From Chloroflexota bacterium (GTDB lineage Bacteria > Chloroflexota > Dehalococcoidia > Lucifugimonadales > UBA3495): a stretch of 47,166 nucleotides of DNA. The stretch is taken from assembly GCA_028875655.1 (NCBI GenBank), contig JAPPCX010000091.1, positions 1-47,166 on the forward strand. The letters are read 5' to 3'. The position numbers and the translations under genes were made by a program. The notes beneath the pieces are model-generated. The model worked only from the letters and a program-made list of their open reading frames with translations, was not told the DNA's origin and did not search any database. This document shows, one piece after another, positions 2,081 to 12,629 of this stretch; the first letter of the stretch is position 1; every line of letters starts with the position of its first letter.

Positions 2081-2656
2081 ATGACCACGCAGAACATAGC
2101 CGCCGCGCCGCCCGTCTCGCTGGAAGAATACGCCGCGCTGCCCAAACACCCACGCTACGAACTGGTCAAAGGAGTTCTAGTAGAACTGATGGCTGCGTCC
2201 GAAGAACACGAACATACCGGCTCACTGGTCAATTGGCGCTTGTCAGAGCACGTTTTCCCCAACGGGTTAGGCCGGGTATATATCAGCAACCGGGGTTATG
2301 TCACCGGGCCGGATTCACCAGCCACCTCGCGGATGCCCGATGTATCCTTCATGTCCAACGAGCGGCTGGGACGCCCTGACTTATTCGGCAAGCTCCACGA
2401 CGGTGCGCCCGATCTAGCAGTTGAGATTCTTTCCGACAGCAATACTCCCGCCGAAATCGCTCGGAAAATCACCGAGTACCTCAACGCCGGCGGCAGGGCC
2501 GTCTGGGTCATTGATATCGACGCCCGCGCCATCACCGTACACACCCCCAATGCACCGCCGGTCACCCTCACCGATGCTGATACCATCGACGGCGCCGACT
2601 ACCTCCCCGGCTTCTCCTGCCCCGTCTCTGACCTGCTCCCGACCAGCGCTGATTAG
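2081..2656 (+). CDS. Uma2 family (DUF820) PD-(D/E)XK endonuclease-like protein
   Basis: The 191-residue protein has the Uma2 order: an N-terminal SLEEYAALP...RYELVKG segment, a central MPDVSFMS, then PDLAVEILSDS and a downstream Lys in ARKITEYLNAG. These form the PD-(D/E)XK-like nuclease core. Such genes are multi-copy in Cyanobacteria and Chloroflexota; their physiological role is not settled. It follows the AAA+ gene closely with GAGGAGG as ribosome site (about 2068-2074), so they may share a transcript. Its stop codon overlaps the stop of the convergent selenoprotein-like gene by two bases. A second Uma2 protein lies at 21959-22867. Confidence 0.8.
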   Translation: MTTQNIAAAPPVSLEEYAALPKHPRYELVKGVLVELMAASEEHEHTGSLVNWRLSEHVFPNGLGRVYISNRGYVTGPDSPATSRMPDVSFMSNERLGRPDLFGKLHDGAPDLAVEILSDSNTPAEIARKITEYLNAGGRAVWVIDIDARAITVHTPNAPPVTLTDADTIDGADYLPGFSCPVSDLLPTSAD

Positions 2657-2982
2657 ACCAGCGATGCTCTCCGCCCCAGCGTGATCCCGTCGGGCAGTGC
2701 GATGGTCGCCTTCAGGTTGCGGAACAGCAGGAACCGGCTCACCAACACGTCCACCCGCTCGGCGTAGTCGGCGATGCCCGGAGCCAGCAGCAGTTCAATA
2801 TCGCCATACTCAGCCCGCTCGTAGGCGTCCAGGTTGCGCCGCCGCCGCACGTTGGTATCGACCGATACCTCTACGGATTCGCCGCTTCAACCCTTCCAGC
2901 AGATCAGGTCAATCACGGCCCGACCACCCTTGTTGCGAATGAACTGGGCCGCCTCGGCCGTTATTTCCAACTGTGCGCTCAT
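2653..2982 (-). CDS. Candidate selenoprotein, CC/Se-motif-like, with in-frame TGA at codon 32
   Basis: Seen: from an ATG at 2982 with AGAAGGG upstream, the frame runs 109 residues to TAA at 2653 with a single internal stop, TGA at 2889-2887. The N-terminal part is MSAQLEITAEAAQFIRNKGG followed by RAVIDLICWKG, then the TGA, then SGESVEVSVDT. The C-terminal part (GDIELLLAPGIADYAERVDV and SRFLLFRNLKATIALP) keeps the same coding style. A hairpin with a GGUC tetraloop follows the TGA. Known, from memory and not checked: a family of small proteins labelled CC/Se motif family (seleno)protein has this size, an ITxEA...KGG start and a C-terminal strand/LxFxxLxV pattern, with Cys or Sec in the loop. 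Inference: TGA encodes selenocysteine. The alternative is a single nonsense mutation (CGA or TGC to TGA). The gene begins 12 bases after the hicA stop and is probably co-transcribed with hicBA. Confidence 0.6.
2850..2875 (-). promoter_or_regulatory. Putative bacterial SECIS hairpin
   Basis: On the coding strand GGTATC-GGTC-GATACC (2869-2854) forms a perfect 6-bp stem with a GGUC tetraloop. A lower CGT/ACG stem is separated by a 3x1 internal loop. The loop begins 23 nt after the TGA, within the window usually accepted for bacterial SECIS elements (about 16-37 nt), and has G at its first two positions. The E. coli fdhF element also presents a GGUC loop to SelB. The hairpin lies in the coding frame (VSVDT). 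Confidence 0.6.
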
Positions 2983-2994
2983 ATCGTAGCCCTT

Positions 2995-3282
2995 CTAATC
3001 TAGCGGCTGCCCATCCCAAGGCGCGTCGGGGTCCAGATAGCGGCGCGGGATGTCGCCGCGCAACGCCGTCCGAAACTCCTCGGCGCTGTTGAATTTGAGG
3101 TCATCAATCGCAATTTTGCCCATCAGCAAGGCGCCGATTTCCTTGTCTCCATGTGAAATATGAGTGGTTATCCTCAGCCATTCGTGGTGGAAGTAGGCGT
3201 GGTGGCGGTTGTCCTGCAAGAATCGCATCCGCCGGAGTAGTCGCAACAGTTCCCGGGTTTTGACGTTGGCAATTCTTGGCAT
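2995..3282 (-). CDS. hicA: HicA-like mRNA interferase toxin
   Basis: This 95-residue protein starts MPRIANVKTRELLRLLRRMRF, followed by QDNRHHAYFHH and ITTHISHGDKEIG. That is the HicA double-stranded-RNA-binding-like fold, with the catalytic His in the HHAYFHH strand where the family usually has GSH. HicA cleaves mRNA and is neutralised by HicB. The gene starts 2 bases after the hicB stop. It is longer than a typical HicA (about 60-80 residues) because of a C-terminal tail, RRYLDPDAPWDGQPLD. The antitoxin-first order matches one of the two known hic arrangements. Confidence 0.75.
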   Translation of the reverse strand: MPRIANVKTRELLRLLRRMRFLQDNRHHAYFHHEWLRITTHISHGDKEIGALLMGKIAIDDLKFNSAEEFRTALRGDIPRRYLDPDAPWDGQPLD

Positions 3283-3284
3283 CG

Positions 3285-3575
3285 CTAGGCCGGCGCAGGA
3301 ACCGCAGGATGCGCCACCTTACGCAGCCATGGAACGACATCTTCCGCAACCAATTCCGCAATCAATTCTTCCACATCATCCTGCGCCGCTCCACCGAACT
3401 TCACCCGGTCTGGTTCCAGCTCCAAGAAGCAGGCTATCGCTTTGGAGATCTCTGCCAGAGCCTCCGCTTCGGTGTCTCCCTGCCCATGGGCGCGGCACAC
3501 GGCGGGGCAAAGCGCCGCGTAGCACTTTGAGCCATCGGAAAGATCGTCAAGCCAGACAACAACGTCGTATTCCAT
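3285..3575 (-). CDS. hicB: HicB-like antitoxin
   Basis: The 96-residue protein opens MEYDVVVWLDDLSDGSKCYA, continues ALCPAVCRAHGQGDTEAEALAEISKAIACFLE and ends in an acidic helical tail. The first part is the partial RNase-H fold of HicB antitoxins, in which VxxCPxLPGxxxxGDTxEEA is the common pattern. No ribbon-helix-helix or HTH tail is obvious, so DNA binding is uncertain. GGAGG lies 6 bases before the ATG. It leads a minus-strand unit with hicA and the selenoprotein-like gene. Confidence 0.75.
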   Translation of the reverse strand: MEYDVVVWLDDLSDGSKCYAALCPAVCRAHGQGDTEAEALAEISKAIACFLELEPDRVKFGGAAQDDVEELIAELVAEDVVPWLRKVAHPAVPAPA

Positions 3576-3609: not shown

Positions 3610-4218
3610 TCAGCCAACCGCCTCCCTCGCCAACAGCAGCGCGTTGCGTGATTCGATTGCCGCCGGATGCACTGGCACTCCGCTGTCCAGCAGCCGTGCT
3701 ATGTTGTTGGTCAGGAACATTAGCATCGCCGCCGGCAGGTCGGTCTCGGCCAGTTCCCTCAGCTCCGGCTGACAAGGGTAGCGCTTGAGTTTGACGGGAT
3801 CCAGCTTGTCGGCCAGGAGGATGATGTGGCCGATGGTATCGCCGCCCGTGGGGTTGCCGGTGGTGTGCCAGTAGATGGCGTCGTAAAGCTGGGGGTGGCT
3901 CAGCCCGTCCTCGCGCTTGAGCAGTTCGGCGCCCACCATGCCGTGCAGGATGGCCGGGTTGCGCCGCTCGTATTCGGTCACCGGAGGCAGGTCGTAATCC
4001 TCCATCCGTAGCAGGTTCTCCGCGCCCGAGAAATGCCTGGTGGCGTCGTGGGCCAGCGCGGCCAGCCCCACGGCGTCGGCATCCTGTCCATGCTTTTCGC
4101 AGAGGCCACGTGCGATCTGCTCAACGCGCTGGCAGTGCTCGCAGAGCGCGGGCGGCAAGCGACGCATCCGCCGGTGGATGCGGTCATACACGCGGCCGGG
4201 GATTTCGATGGTGGTCAT
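3610..4218 (-). CDS. yqeK: YqeK-like HD-domain Ap4A hydrolase
   Basis: The 202-residue protein carries the HD-domain metal ligands in YqeK order: HCQRV (His28), HD (57-58), LHG (His92), YWHTTG (His118) and LLADKLDP (Asp137). The AIYWHTTGNP...LADKLDP block is characteristic of YqeK, a symmetrical bis(5'-nucleosyl)-tetraphosphatase. In Firmicutes yqeK usually follows nadD, which here lies about 4.8 kb away in obg-nadD. The gene starts 4 bases after the upstream HIT gene's stop, so the two are co-transcribed. Both act on dinucleoside polyphosphates or related nucleotides in their families, so pairing makes sense. Confidence 0.75.
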   Translation of the reverse strand: MTTIEIPGRVYDRIHRRMRRLPPALCEHCQRVEQIARGLCEKHGQDADAVGLAALAHDATRHFSGAENLLRMEDYDLPPVTEYERRNPAILHGMVGAELLKREDGLSHPQLYDAIYWHTTGNPTGGDTIGHIILLADKLDPVKLKRYPCQPELRELAETDLPAAMLMFLTNNIARLLDSGVPVHPAAIESRNALLLAREAVG

Positions 4219-4222
4219 CGGG

Positions 4223-4579
4223 TCAGCCCATGTCGCCCAGGGCGCGACCGCCCAGCAGGTGCATGTGAGGCCAGGCGATGGTCTGGCCGGCGTCCTCGCC
4301 GTTGTTCATCACCAGCCGATAGCCGCTGATGGTGACGCCCTCGCGCCGGGCCATCTCCGCGGCGACGACGAAGAGGTGCCCCATGATGCCCTCCATGGCC
4401 GGGCTGATGTAGTCCAGGCCGTTGATGGGCATGTTGGGGATGATCAGCAGATGCACCGGCGCCTTGGGATAGATGTCGCGCACGACGAAGCAACGCTCAT
4501 CGCGGTAAATCACGTCGGGATGCAGCGGGTCCCGGGCCATGGCGGCGAAGGGCGAGTTGCGGGCGGGGGTGATGGTCAT
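4223..4579 (-). CDS. HIT-family nucleotide-binding protein with altered triad
   Basis: This 118-residue protein has the HIT fold sequence: YRDERCFVVRDIYPKAPVHL, the IPNMPI loop and GYRLVMNNGEDAGQ, ending at the triad region QTIAWPHMHLLGG. Aligned to the usual QSVxHLHLHxLGG, the first triad histidine is Trp; the central (nucleophilic) and third His remain. HIT proteins hydrolyse or transfer purine nucleotides. Loss of the first His should weaken activity but not necessarily binding. A GGAG lies about 11 bases upstream of the ATG. It is the first gene of a HIT-yqeK pair. Confidence 0.75.
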   Translation of the reverse strand: MTITPARNSPFAAMARDPLHPDVIYRDERCFVVRDIYPKAPVHLLIIPNMPINGLDYISPAMEGIMGHLFVVAAEMARREGVTISGYRLVMNNGEDAGQTIAWPHMHLLGGRALGDMG

Positions 4580-4704: not shown

Positions 4705-5880
4705 TTACGCCGCCTCGATCTCCTGCAGCGCGATTTCCTTGTGGTCGTGGACGCTGCCGTAGGATAGTTCCTGCACCTTGGCTCGGCGGGTGTAGAGCTG
4801 GAGGTTGTGTTCCATGGTGAAGCCGATGGCGCCGTGGCACTGGTGGCCCAGCGAGCACACCCGTTGGTAGGCTCCACTGCACCACGCCTTGGCGACGGCA
4901 ACCTCGCGGCGGGCCGGCTGGCCCTCGGAGATGGCCCACGCCGCCTGGTACGCCACGTGGCGCGCGCCCTCGACGTCGGTGGCCATGTTGGCGCAGTGAT
5001 GCTGCACCGCCTGGAAGCTGCCCACCGGCCGTCCGAACTGCGTGCGCTGCTTCACGTACTCCACCGTCATGTCCACCACTGCCTCGGCGCCGCCCACCAT
5101 CTGCACACAGTGGGCCGCCGTCGCCCGCGCCAACGCCCGCTCGATGACGGGCCAACCCTCGCCAACCTCGCCCAGCACGGCGTCCCCGGACACCGACACG
5201 TTGTGCATCCGTATCTCGCACAGCCGCTCGTTGCCGATGGTGCTCACCTGCTCGACTTCAACTCCCGACGCGCCGGAGGGAACCAGGAAGAGAGTGATAC
5301 CCTCTTCTGGATTCCCGCTTTCGCGGGAATGACGGGAGGAATTGGGGTCGTCGCCGGCTGGCATGGTCCGAGCAGCGACGATGATAGTGTCGGCGGCGTG
5401 GGCGTCGGGGACGAACAACTTGGTTCCGTTGATGACGTAGCCACCATCCGAAGCTCTGGCCTGGGTCTCAACACCCCACGCCTCGGTGGTAGCCGACGGC
5501 TCGGTGAGCGCCAGGGTCAGGCGCACCGTGCCGGCGCAAACGCCGGTCAGGATGTTCTGTTTCTGAGCGTCGTTGCCGGCGTCGAGCACGGTGAGGCCGC
5601 CGAGCACTACGGTGGCGAAGAACGGAGCCGGCAGCAGCGCCCGTCCCGTCTCTTCCACCAGCACCGCCAAATCCAGGAAAGTGCCGCCGGTGCCGCCGTA
5701 CTGCTCGGGGAAGGGTATGCCGGTCCAGCCCAGGTTGACCACCTGACGCCAGATGTCTTCGCTGAACCCCTGCGGGTCGTCCTCCAGCTCGCGCACCAGC
5801 GTGAGCGGACATTCCTGGGCCAGAAATTCGCGGGCCGAGTTCTTCAGCATCTGCTGAATCTCGCTGAGTCCCATATCCAT
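4705..5880 (-). CDS. Acyl-CoA dehydrogenase family protein
   Basis: The 391-residue protein shows the acyl-CoA dehydrogenase plan: an N-terminal helical domain, a central beta domain, then the C-terminal bundle with QRTQFGRPVGSFQAVQHHCA and HGAIGFTMEHNLQLYTRRAK, where Glu in FTME matches the catalytic base position. It oxidises an acyl-CoA at alpha-beta with FAD; the substrate cannot be told. The ATG at 5880 is chosen because GGGAGG lies 9 bases upstream. Odd: in the beta domain the frame contains NSSRHSRESGNPEEG, encoded by a dispersed palindromic repeat that also occurs between genes, inserted without breaking the frame. No electron-transfer flavoprotein gene is nearby. Confidence 0.85.
   Translation of the reverse strand: MDMGLSEIQQMLKNSAREFLAQECPLTLVRELEDDPQGFSEDIWRQVVNLGWTGIPFPEQYGGTGGTFLDLAVLVEETGRALLPAPFFATVVLGGLTVLDAGNDAQKQNILTGVCAGTVRLTLALTEPSATTEAWGVETQARASDGGYVINGTKLFVPDAHAADTIIVAARTMPAGDDPNSSRHSRESGNPEEGITLFLVPSGASGVEVEQVSTIGNERLCEIRMHNVSVSGDAVLGEVGEGWPVIERALARATAAHCVQMVGGAEAVVDMTVEYVKQRTQFGRPVGSFQAVQHHCANMATDVEGARHVAYQAAWAISEGQPARREVAVAKAWCSGAYQRVCSLGHQCHGAIGFTMEHNLQLYTRRAKVQELSYGSVHDHKEIALQEIEAA
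5307..5335. repeat. Repeat family A copy, inside a coding region
   Basis: ATTCCCGC-TTTC-GCGGGAAT with flanking CTGG and GACGG. The arms are perfect over 8 bases. Related copies are intergenic at 17414-17442 and 42111-42141. Here it lies in frame in the acyl-CoA dehydrogenase and encodes the RHSRESGNP segment. Confidence 0.8.
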
Positions 5881-6078
5881 AGGGGAAAGCCTCCCGCCGC
5901 GGGCCACCGGAACGGCAGTCCGGGCGAAGCAAGAAAGGATTTGAAAGCGCAGCGAGTATAGCGCACCGGGCCGGCGGCGGCAAACCTACTGGCCCTCGTT
6001 TGCCGCCCAGCATCGCCCCTGTGTACAATGCGGCTATCACCCCTCCCGCCGTCGTATTGCATCCCAAGGAGGCGCCCC

Positions 6079-12272: not shown

Positions 12273-12629
12273 CTACACGGCGAAGGAAGTGCCGCAGCCG
12301 CAGGCTTTCTTGGCGTTGGGGTTCTCGAAGACGAAGCCCTTGCCGTTGAGTCCGTCGGAGAAGTCGAGTTGGGTGCCAACCAGGTAGATGTAGGACTTCT
12401 TGTCCACCATCACCTTGACGCCGTACTGCTCCACGATCTTGTCGGACTCGCGTTCCTGGTCGGTGATGTTGAGGTCATACGTCAGGCCGGAGCATCCGCC
12501 GCCCTTGACAGCGACGCGGAGACCGATATTGTCGGTGATGCCCTCTTTCTCGGCAAAATACTTGATCTTTTCGGCGGCCTTCTCCGAAATTTCTACGGTG
12601 AGTTCAACGCCGTTCTGGGTGATGGGCAT
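12273..12629 (-). CDS. erpA: ErpA/IscA-type iron-sulfur insertion protein
   Basis: The 118-residue A-type carrier has the three conserved cysteines: Cys46 in VKGGGCSGLTY, and Cys110 and Cys112 in ACGCGTSF. The LTVEISEKAAEKIKYFAEKEG start is also typical. It delivers Fe-S clusters to apo-enzymes. GAGGAGG stands about 8 bases before the ATG. It lies upstream of ygfZ on the same strand with a family C repeat between, so the two may be one Fe-S maturation unit. Confidence 0.9.
   Translation of the reverse strand: MPITQNGVELTVEISEKAAEKIKYFAEKEGITDNIGLRVAVKGGGCSGLTYDLNITDQERESDKIVEQYGVKVMVDKKSYIYLVGTQLDFSDGLNGKGFVFENPNAKKACGCGTSFAV

Follow-up and report, generated by a model that had tools for sequence, protein, structure and literature searches.

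Background

Nearly all selenoproteins have homologs with cysteine (Cys) (PMC13188914). The closest known family to the gene reported here is NF041239, the Moorella-type ‘CC/Se motif family (seleno)protein’, which is known to include selenoproteins and is listed with the motif CxxU, where U is selenocysteine (Sec) (PMC13188914). Small HesB-related proteins, selenoproteins included, with Sec in a U-x-G context also form TIGR01911 (HesB-like selenoprotein; motif UxGP, PMC13188914) and NF038090 (IscA_HesB_Se), and the text on GOS_A and GOS_B (PMC2398784) does not tell whether either is the family treated below. Here we describe a gene with one in-frame TGA in a stretch of 47,166 nucleotides (nt) from a Chloroflexota bacterium (GTDB lineage Dehalococcoidia; Lucifugimonadales; UBA3495; assembly GCA_028875655.1, contig JAPPCX010000091.1, positions 1 to 47,166), hereafter the window. 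Judged from sequence, the UGA of this gene is very probably decoded as Sec (probability about 95%), and the gene is a Sec-only variant of a known, NF041239-related selenoprotein family in SAR202-type Dehalococcoidia. It thereby adds a selenoprotein whose reading frame is truncated by ordinary annotation, in bacteria that are mostly uncultured and live in the sea or in association with sponges; among the literature searched, no paper on selenoproteins in SAR202 was found.

An in-frame TGA in one conserved reading frame

The joined translation begins with MSAQLEITAEAAQFIRNKGGRAVIDLICWKGUSGESVEVSVDT and ends in RASLV, with a single TGA at codon 32 (Table 1). A preliminary description of this DNA, which named no strand, had proposed an overlooked selenoprotein gene here, and the proposal is now supported by the conservation of the TGA, by covariation of a hairpin at synonymous sites and by the presence of a Sec machinery. 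Its structural elements are all found: the 109-codon frame, which lies on the minus strand, a ribosome site ahead of an ATG that follows the upstream stop codon by 12 nt, a hairpin without mismatches, whose loop lies 23 nt past the UGA, and the truncated open reading frame (ORF) of 65 residues, with a GTG start at 2850, that is left to standard gene callers.

When the joined 109-residue protein was used as query, homologs were found in every one of the 14 genomes searched from the genus and in 35 of 50 genomes of the GTDB family, each match containing exactly one TGA. A scan at class level gave matches in 27 of 393 genomes, again with one TGA in every match, and the TGA occupied the identical column in all 70 extracted genes. 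These roughly 70 relatives come from marine and sponge-associated Chloroflexota; in a scan of named genomes the matches fell into bins titled SAR202 cluster, Dehalococcoidia or Chloroflexi, and into one titled Actinomycetes. Several genomes hold a second tandem copy, in which the TGA is also present. Cys at the Sec column was found in none of the matches from the genus, family and class scans, and neither Trp, Arg nor Gly appeared there in any relative examined. In a more distant gene from a chloroflexote (L078) the motif is RCUSG, while distant forms that lack Sec have RCCGG or RCCSG, so that Cys-Cys or Cys-Sec stands at the motif of distant relatives, in line with the earlier proposal. No relative was found in the phage and plasmid records searched.

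Among the 14 congeneric genes, the ratio of nonsynonymous to synonymous substitution rates (dN/dS) was 0.175 before the TGA (codons 2-31) and 0.188 after it (codons 33-109), which indicates purifying selection on both parts. Because the two values are practically equal, the parts are maintained as one protein, as the preliminary description had read them. Codons 39-44, which hold most of the hairpin, each use one codon and show no synonymous change in the 14 congeners, at a mean dS of 0.69.

The gene found in the bin labelled Actinomycetes (L117) has the same TGA and the same hairpin; it may have been transferred horizontally, or the contig may be misplaced.

A covarying SECIS-type hairpin downstream of the TGA

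Bacterial selenocysteine insertion sequence (bSECIS) elements are described by a loop of 3-9 nt, a stem of 4-16 base pairs (bp), a G among the first two loop bases, a distance of 16-37 nt from the UGA and an energy of at most -7.5 kcal/mol (PMC13188914). The hairpin studied here agrees with this description, having a GGUC loop, 6 bp, a distance of 23 nt and an energy of -6.2 for the 16-nt hairpin alone or -12.6 with the lower stem. In the window, 36 of 1274 TGA trinucleotides (2.8%) are followed at 16-37 nt by a 6-bp Watson-Crick hairpin with a SECIS-type loop, and among these 36 only the TGA of this gene has a GGUC loop. In E. coli, the SECIS of fdhF likewise has a GGUC loop, so that E. coli SelB may recognise the hairpin.

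The consensus across relatives is GGURUC-GGUC-GAYACC, starting 17 nt past the UGA in the GTDB family of the window and 14 nt past it in other families. Pairing was retained in 97.4% of the hairpin cells of 45 distinct sequences and dropped to at most 57.2% when the partner was slid by 1-3 columns. Both sides had changed in 22 cells, compared with 6.4 in shuffles; as the rows are related, this control is insufficient alone, and the stronger point is the repeated switching along the tree. Pair 4 is G-C in 22 sequences and A-U in 21, and since both of its sides are third codon positions (Val, Asp) the switch is silent. On the protein tree it is needed 5-6 times, at least 3 of which are forced by well-supported branches.

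Divergent second copies of the gene (L057, L058, L063, L064, L066 and L067) keep the TGA and do not keep the same hairpin. In two genera (g236 and g240) the second tandem copies have likewise lost this hairpin; others, with a GG or GA loop, are candidates there.

Selenocysteine machinery and use of TGA

The complete set of genes that Sec insertion calls for was detected in the same genome, namely selA (553 bits), selB (361 bits), selD (378 bits) and selC, the tRNA-Sec with TCA anticodon, each above its cut-off. Of the 50 genomes of the family, 43 have a selA match that exceeds the cut-off, and some of these lack the selenoprotein gene described here. The selD gene (L083, contig C89) has an in-frame TGA of its own (HCAGU), together with a stable hairpin whose loop region contains GGUC, and SelD of this genome is thus probably a selenoprotein as well. 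Elsewhere TGA serves as an ordinary stop, as in the adjacent HIT gene.

Protein family and predicted fold

The window protein reached 34.9 bits with NF041239 in NCBIfam, below the curated cut-off of 40; the profile matched 26 of 26 members scanned, and three relatives passed the cut-off (40.9, 44.7 and 42.1). The branch of the window differs from that family in its motif, CC or CU: Cys next to Sec is missing in 69 of 69 members, the residue at -1 being G, S, K, H, N, T or A. The clade yielded no form with Cys in place of Sec, whereas the distant relative L078 does have CU. Position -3 is Cys in 1 of 69 members. TIGR01911 gave no match in the scans and NF038090 matched two members only (best E 0.0039). 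Pfam gave no match to the window protein, PF01521 matched three relatives (best E 5e-4), and no PDB chain was matched when searched by sequence with the family profile.

The modelled structure (predicted local distance difference test 89.5, predicted template modelling score 0.81) resembles SufA (2d2a; Foldseek E 2e-4, Z 9.2) and IscA (Z 8.0-8.3), and on this model a SufA/IscA fold is predicted for the protein. When profiles are compared, U32 aligns with the cysteine in the GCSG motif, both in E. coli IscA and in a HesB protein encoded in the window, and the likeness to IscA, SufA and HesB (PF01521) extends to the N-terminal motif. Those proteins combine GCSG with a C-terminal CxC into a set of three Cys, whereas CxC is absent from all aligned members of the new branch. 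No cysteine is conserved besides Sec; of 69 members, 28 have Cys at -4 (C28). Structural comparison finds the same fold in DsrR of Allochromatium vinosum (2k4z; Z 7.3). DsrR is not known to carry the A-type cysteines, and it differs from the branch of the window, where Sec is invariant.

The canonical HesB/IscA-type protein of the window, with GGGCSG and CGCG motifs, is encoded at 12291-12596 on the minus strand, approximately 9 kb from the selenoprotein gene.

Decoding of the UGA and possible role of selenocysteine

Decoding as Sec is favoured because the TGA is conserved, selection acts on both of its sides, the hairpin covaries, synonymous sites are constrained and the Sec machinery is present. 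The short ORF, all that standard gene callers give, would also fit a nonsense mutation that split an intact gene and left a pseudogene or a 65-residue remnant. That TGA is however common to every genome in which a homolog was found, 35 in the family and 27 in the class, across genera and orders, and purifying selection in the genus is equal on its two sides; with the TGA kept in every homolog across dozens of independent assemblies, we regard a nonsense mutation as excluded. It is also very improbable that a near-cognate tRNA or a changed genetic code inserts Trp, Gly or Arg. An open frame across the TGA does not by itself identify the residue, but the adjacent HIT gene stops at TGA in a genome that has the full Sec machinery, the SECIS-type hairpin covaries, Cys stands at the motif of distant relatives, and in no relative does the column hold Trp, Arg or Gly. 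For insertion of Sec, SelB together with Sec-tRNA(Sec) would bind the GGUC-loop hairpin, as it does other bacterial SECIS elements, and translation of the UGA would yield a 109-residue product with the fold of an A-type iron-sulfur (Fe-S) carrier, in which Sec would occupy the place of the GCSG cysteine of IscA, the C-terminal CxC pair being missing. The selenolate would then be the sole chemical centre.

What such a selenolate does can be read in several ways, and the data permit no firm choice between a ligand and a redox role. At close to even odds, it may serve as a ligand for a soft metal or an Fe-S species, perhaps shared across a dimer; we prefer this over a part in a dithiol redox pair, since Sec has no conserved cysteine to pair with. 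A redox or nucleophilic centre that reacts with peroxides, disulfides or electrophiles and is resolved by an external thiol is possible but somewhat doubtful: C28 could act as a partner in this genus, yet most members have Ser, Pro, Ala, Gln or other residues at -4, and conservation extends to no further Cys. That the protein works as an A-type Fe-S carrier with one Cys replaced by Sec seems unlikely. The predicted fold and the alignment of GUSG with GCSG speak for it, whereas CxC is missing throughout and the genome has separate PF01521 proteins, including the one in the window with GCSG and CGCG. More broadly, we tentatively propose, at less than even odds, a branch of small HesB-fold proteins that is widespread among SAR202-type Dehalococcoidia and has no Cys-containing form in its clade, and in which a single Sec, the one reactive residue conserved, serves a function that sulfur cannot. 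With about 70 genes that all have Sec, and no Cys form among them, the clade is well suited to the question of why selenium is retained.

Several observations weigh against these interpretations. The evidence for Sec decoding comes from DNA and from predicted RNA and protein. The local folding energy of the single sequence is ordinary (z -0.23), and because it is unremarkable the case for the hairpin rests on conservation; a search of positions 2600-3100 against Rfam at E up to 5 matched no family to the hairpin. The sequence profile matches to IscA and HesB are weak (prob 48 and 12), and in many members Sec is without a Cys partner, an unusual situation that is compatible with more than one chemistry. 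Finally, the neighbouring genes vary between families, and since they do the operon is no guide to function; no function is claimed from context.

Genomic neighbourhood

In the family of the window, the gene follows genes for an acyl-CoA dehydrogenase, a HIT protein and a YqeK-type protein on the same strand. A HicBA-like pair is inserted between YqeK and the selenoprotein gene in this genus only, sometimes twice. The preliminary description had labelled this pair hicBA; the two ORFs are indeed upstream, but the identity of hicA is weak (PF07927, E 0.025, below cut-off), and the hicB-like ORF has no Pfam match. In other families the neighbours are a Nudix hydrolase and a HAD phosphatase in one case, and elsewhere DUF885, CoA-transferase, aconitase or helicase genes.

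Table 1. Features of the selenoprotein locus, with positions in the window
Feature	Position	Strand	Remarks
Probable selenoprotein gene, predicted HesB-like fold, NF041239-related	2653..2982	minus	109 codons and TAA stop
In-frame TGA, predicted selenocysteine codon 32	2887..2889	minus	aligned with GCSG cysteine of IscA
SECIS-type hairpin GGUAUC-GGUC-GAUACC, loop 2863-2860	2854..2869	minus	17 nt past UGA; covaries in relatives
AGAAGG, Shine-Dalgarno-like site ahead of ATG	2991..2996	minus	from sequence
HicA-like ORF immediately upstream	2995..3282	minus	at this place in same-genus relatives only
HicB-like ORF, pair of HicA-like ORF	3285..3575	minus	no Pfam or NCBIfam match
YqeK-type HD hydrolase (Ap4A hydrolase), conserved operon partner	3610..4218	minus	TIGR00488 above cut-off
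HIT (HinT-like) protein, conserved operon partner; normal TGA stop	4223..4579	minus	
Acyl-CoA dehydrogenase, conserved operon partner	4705..5907	minus	

Downstream lies a convergent ORF of 191 residues (2081-2656, plus strand), which had no match in NCBIfam and which may encode a Uma2-type nuclease; in congeners it occurs in up to five tandem copies.
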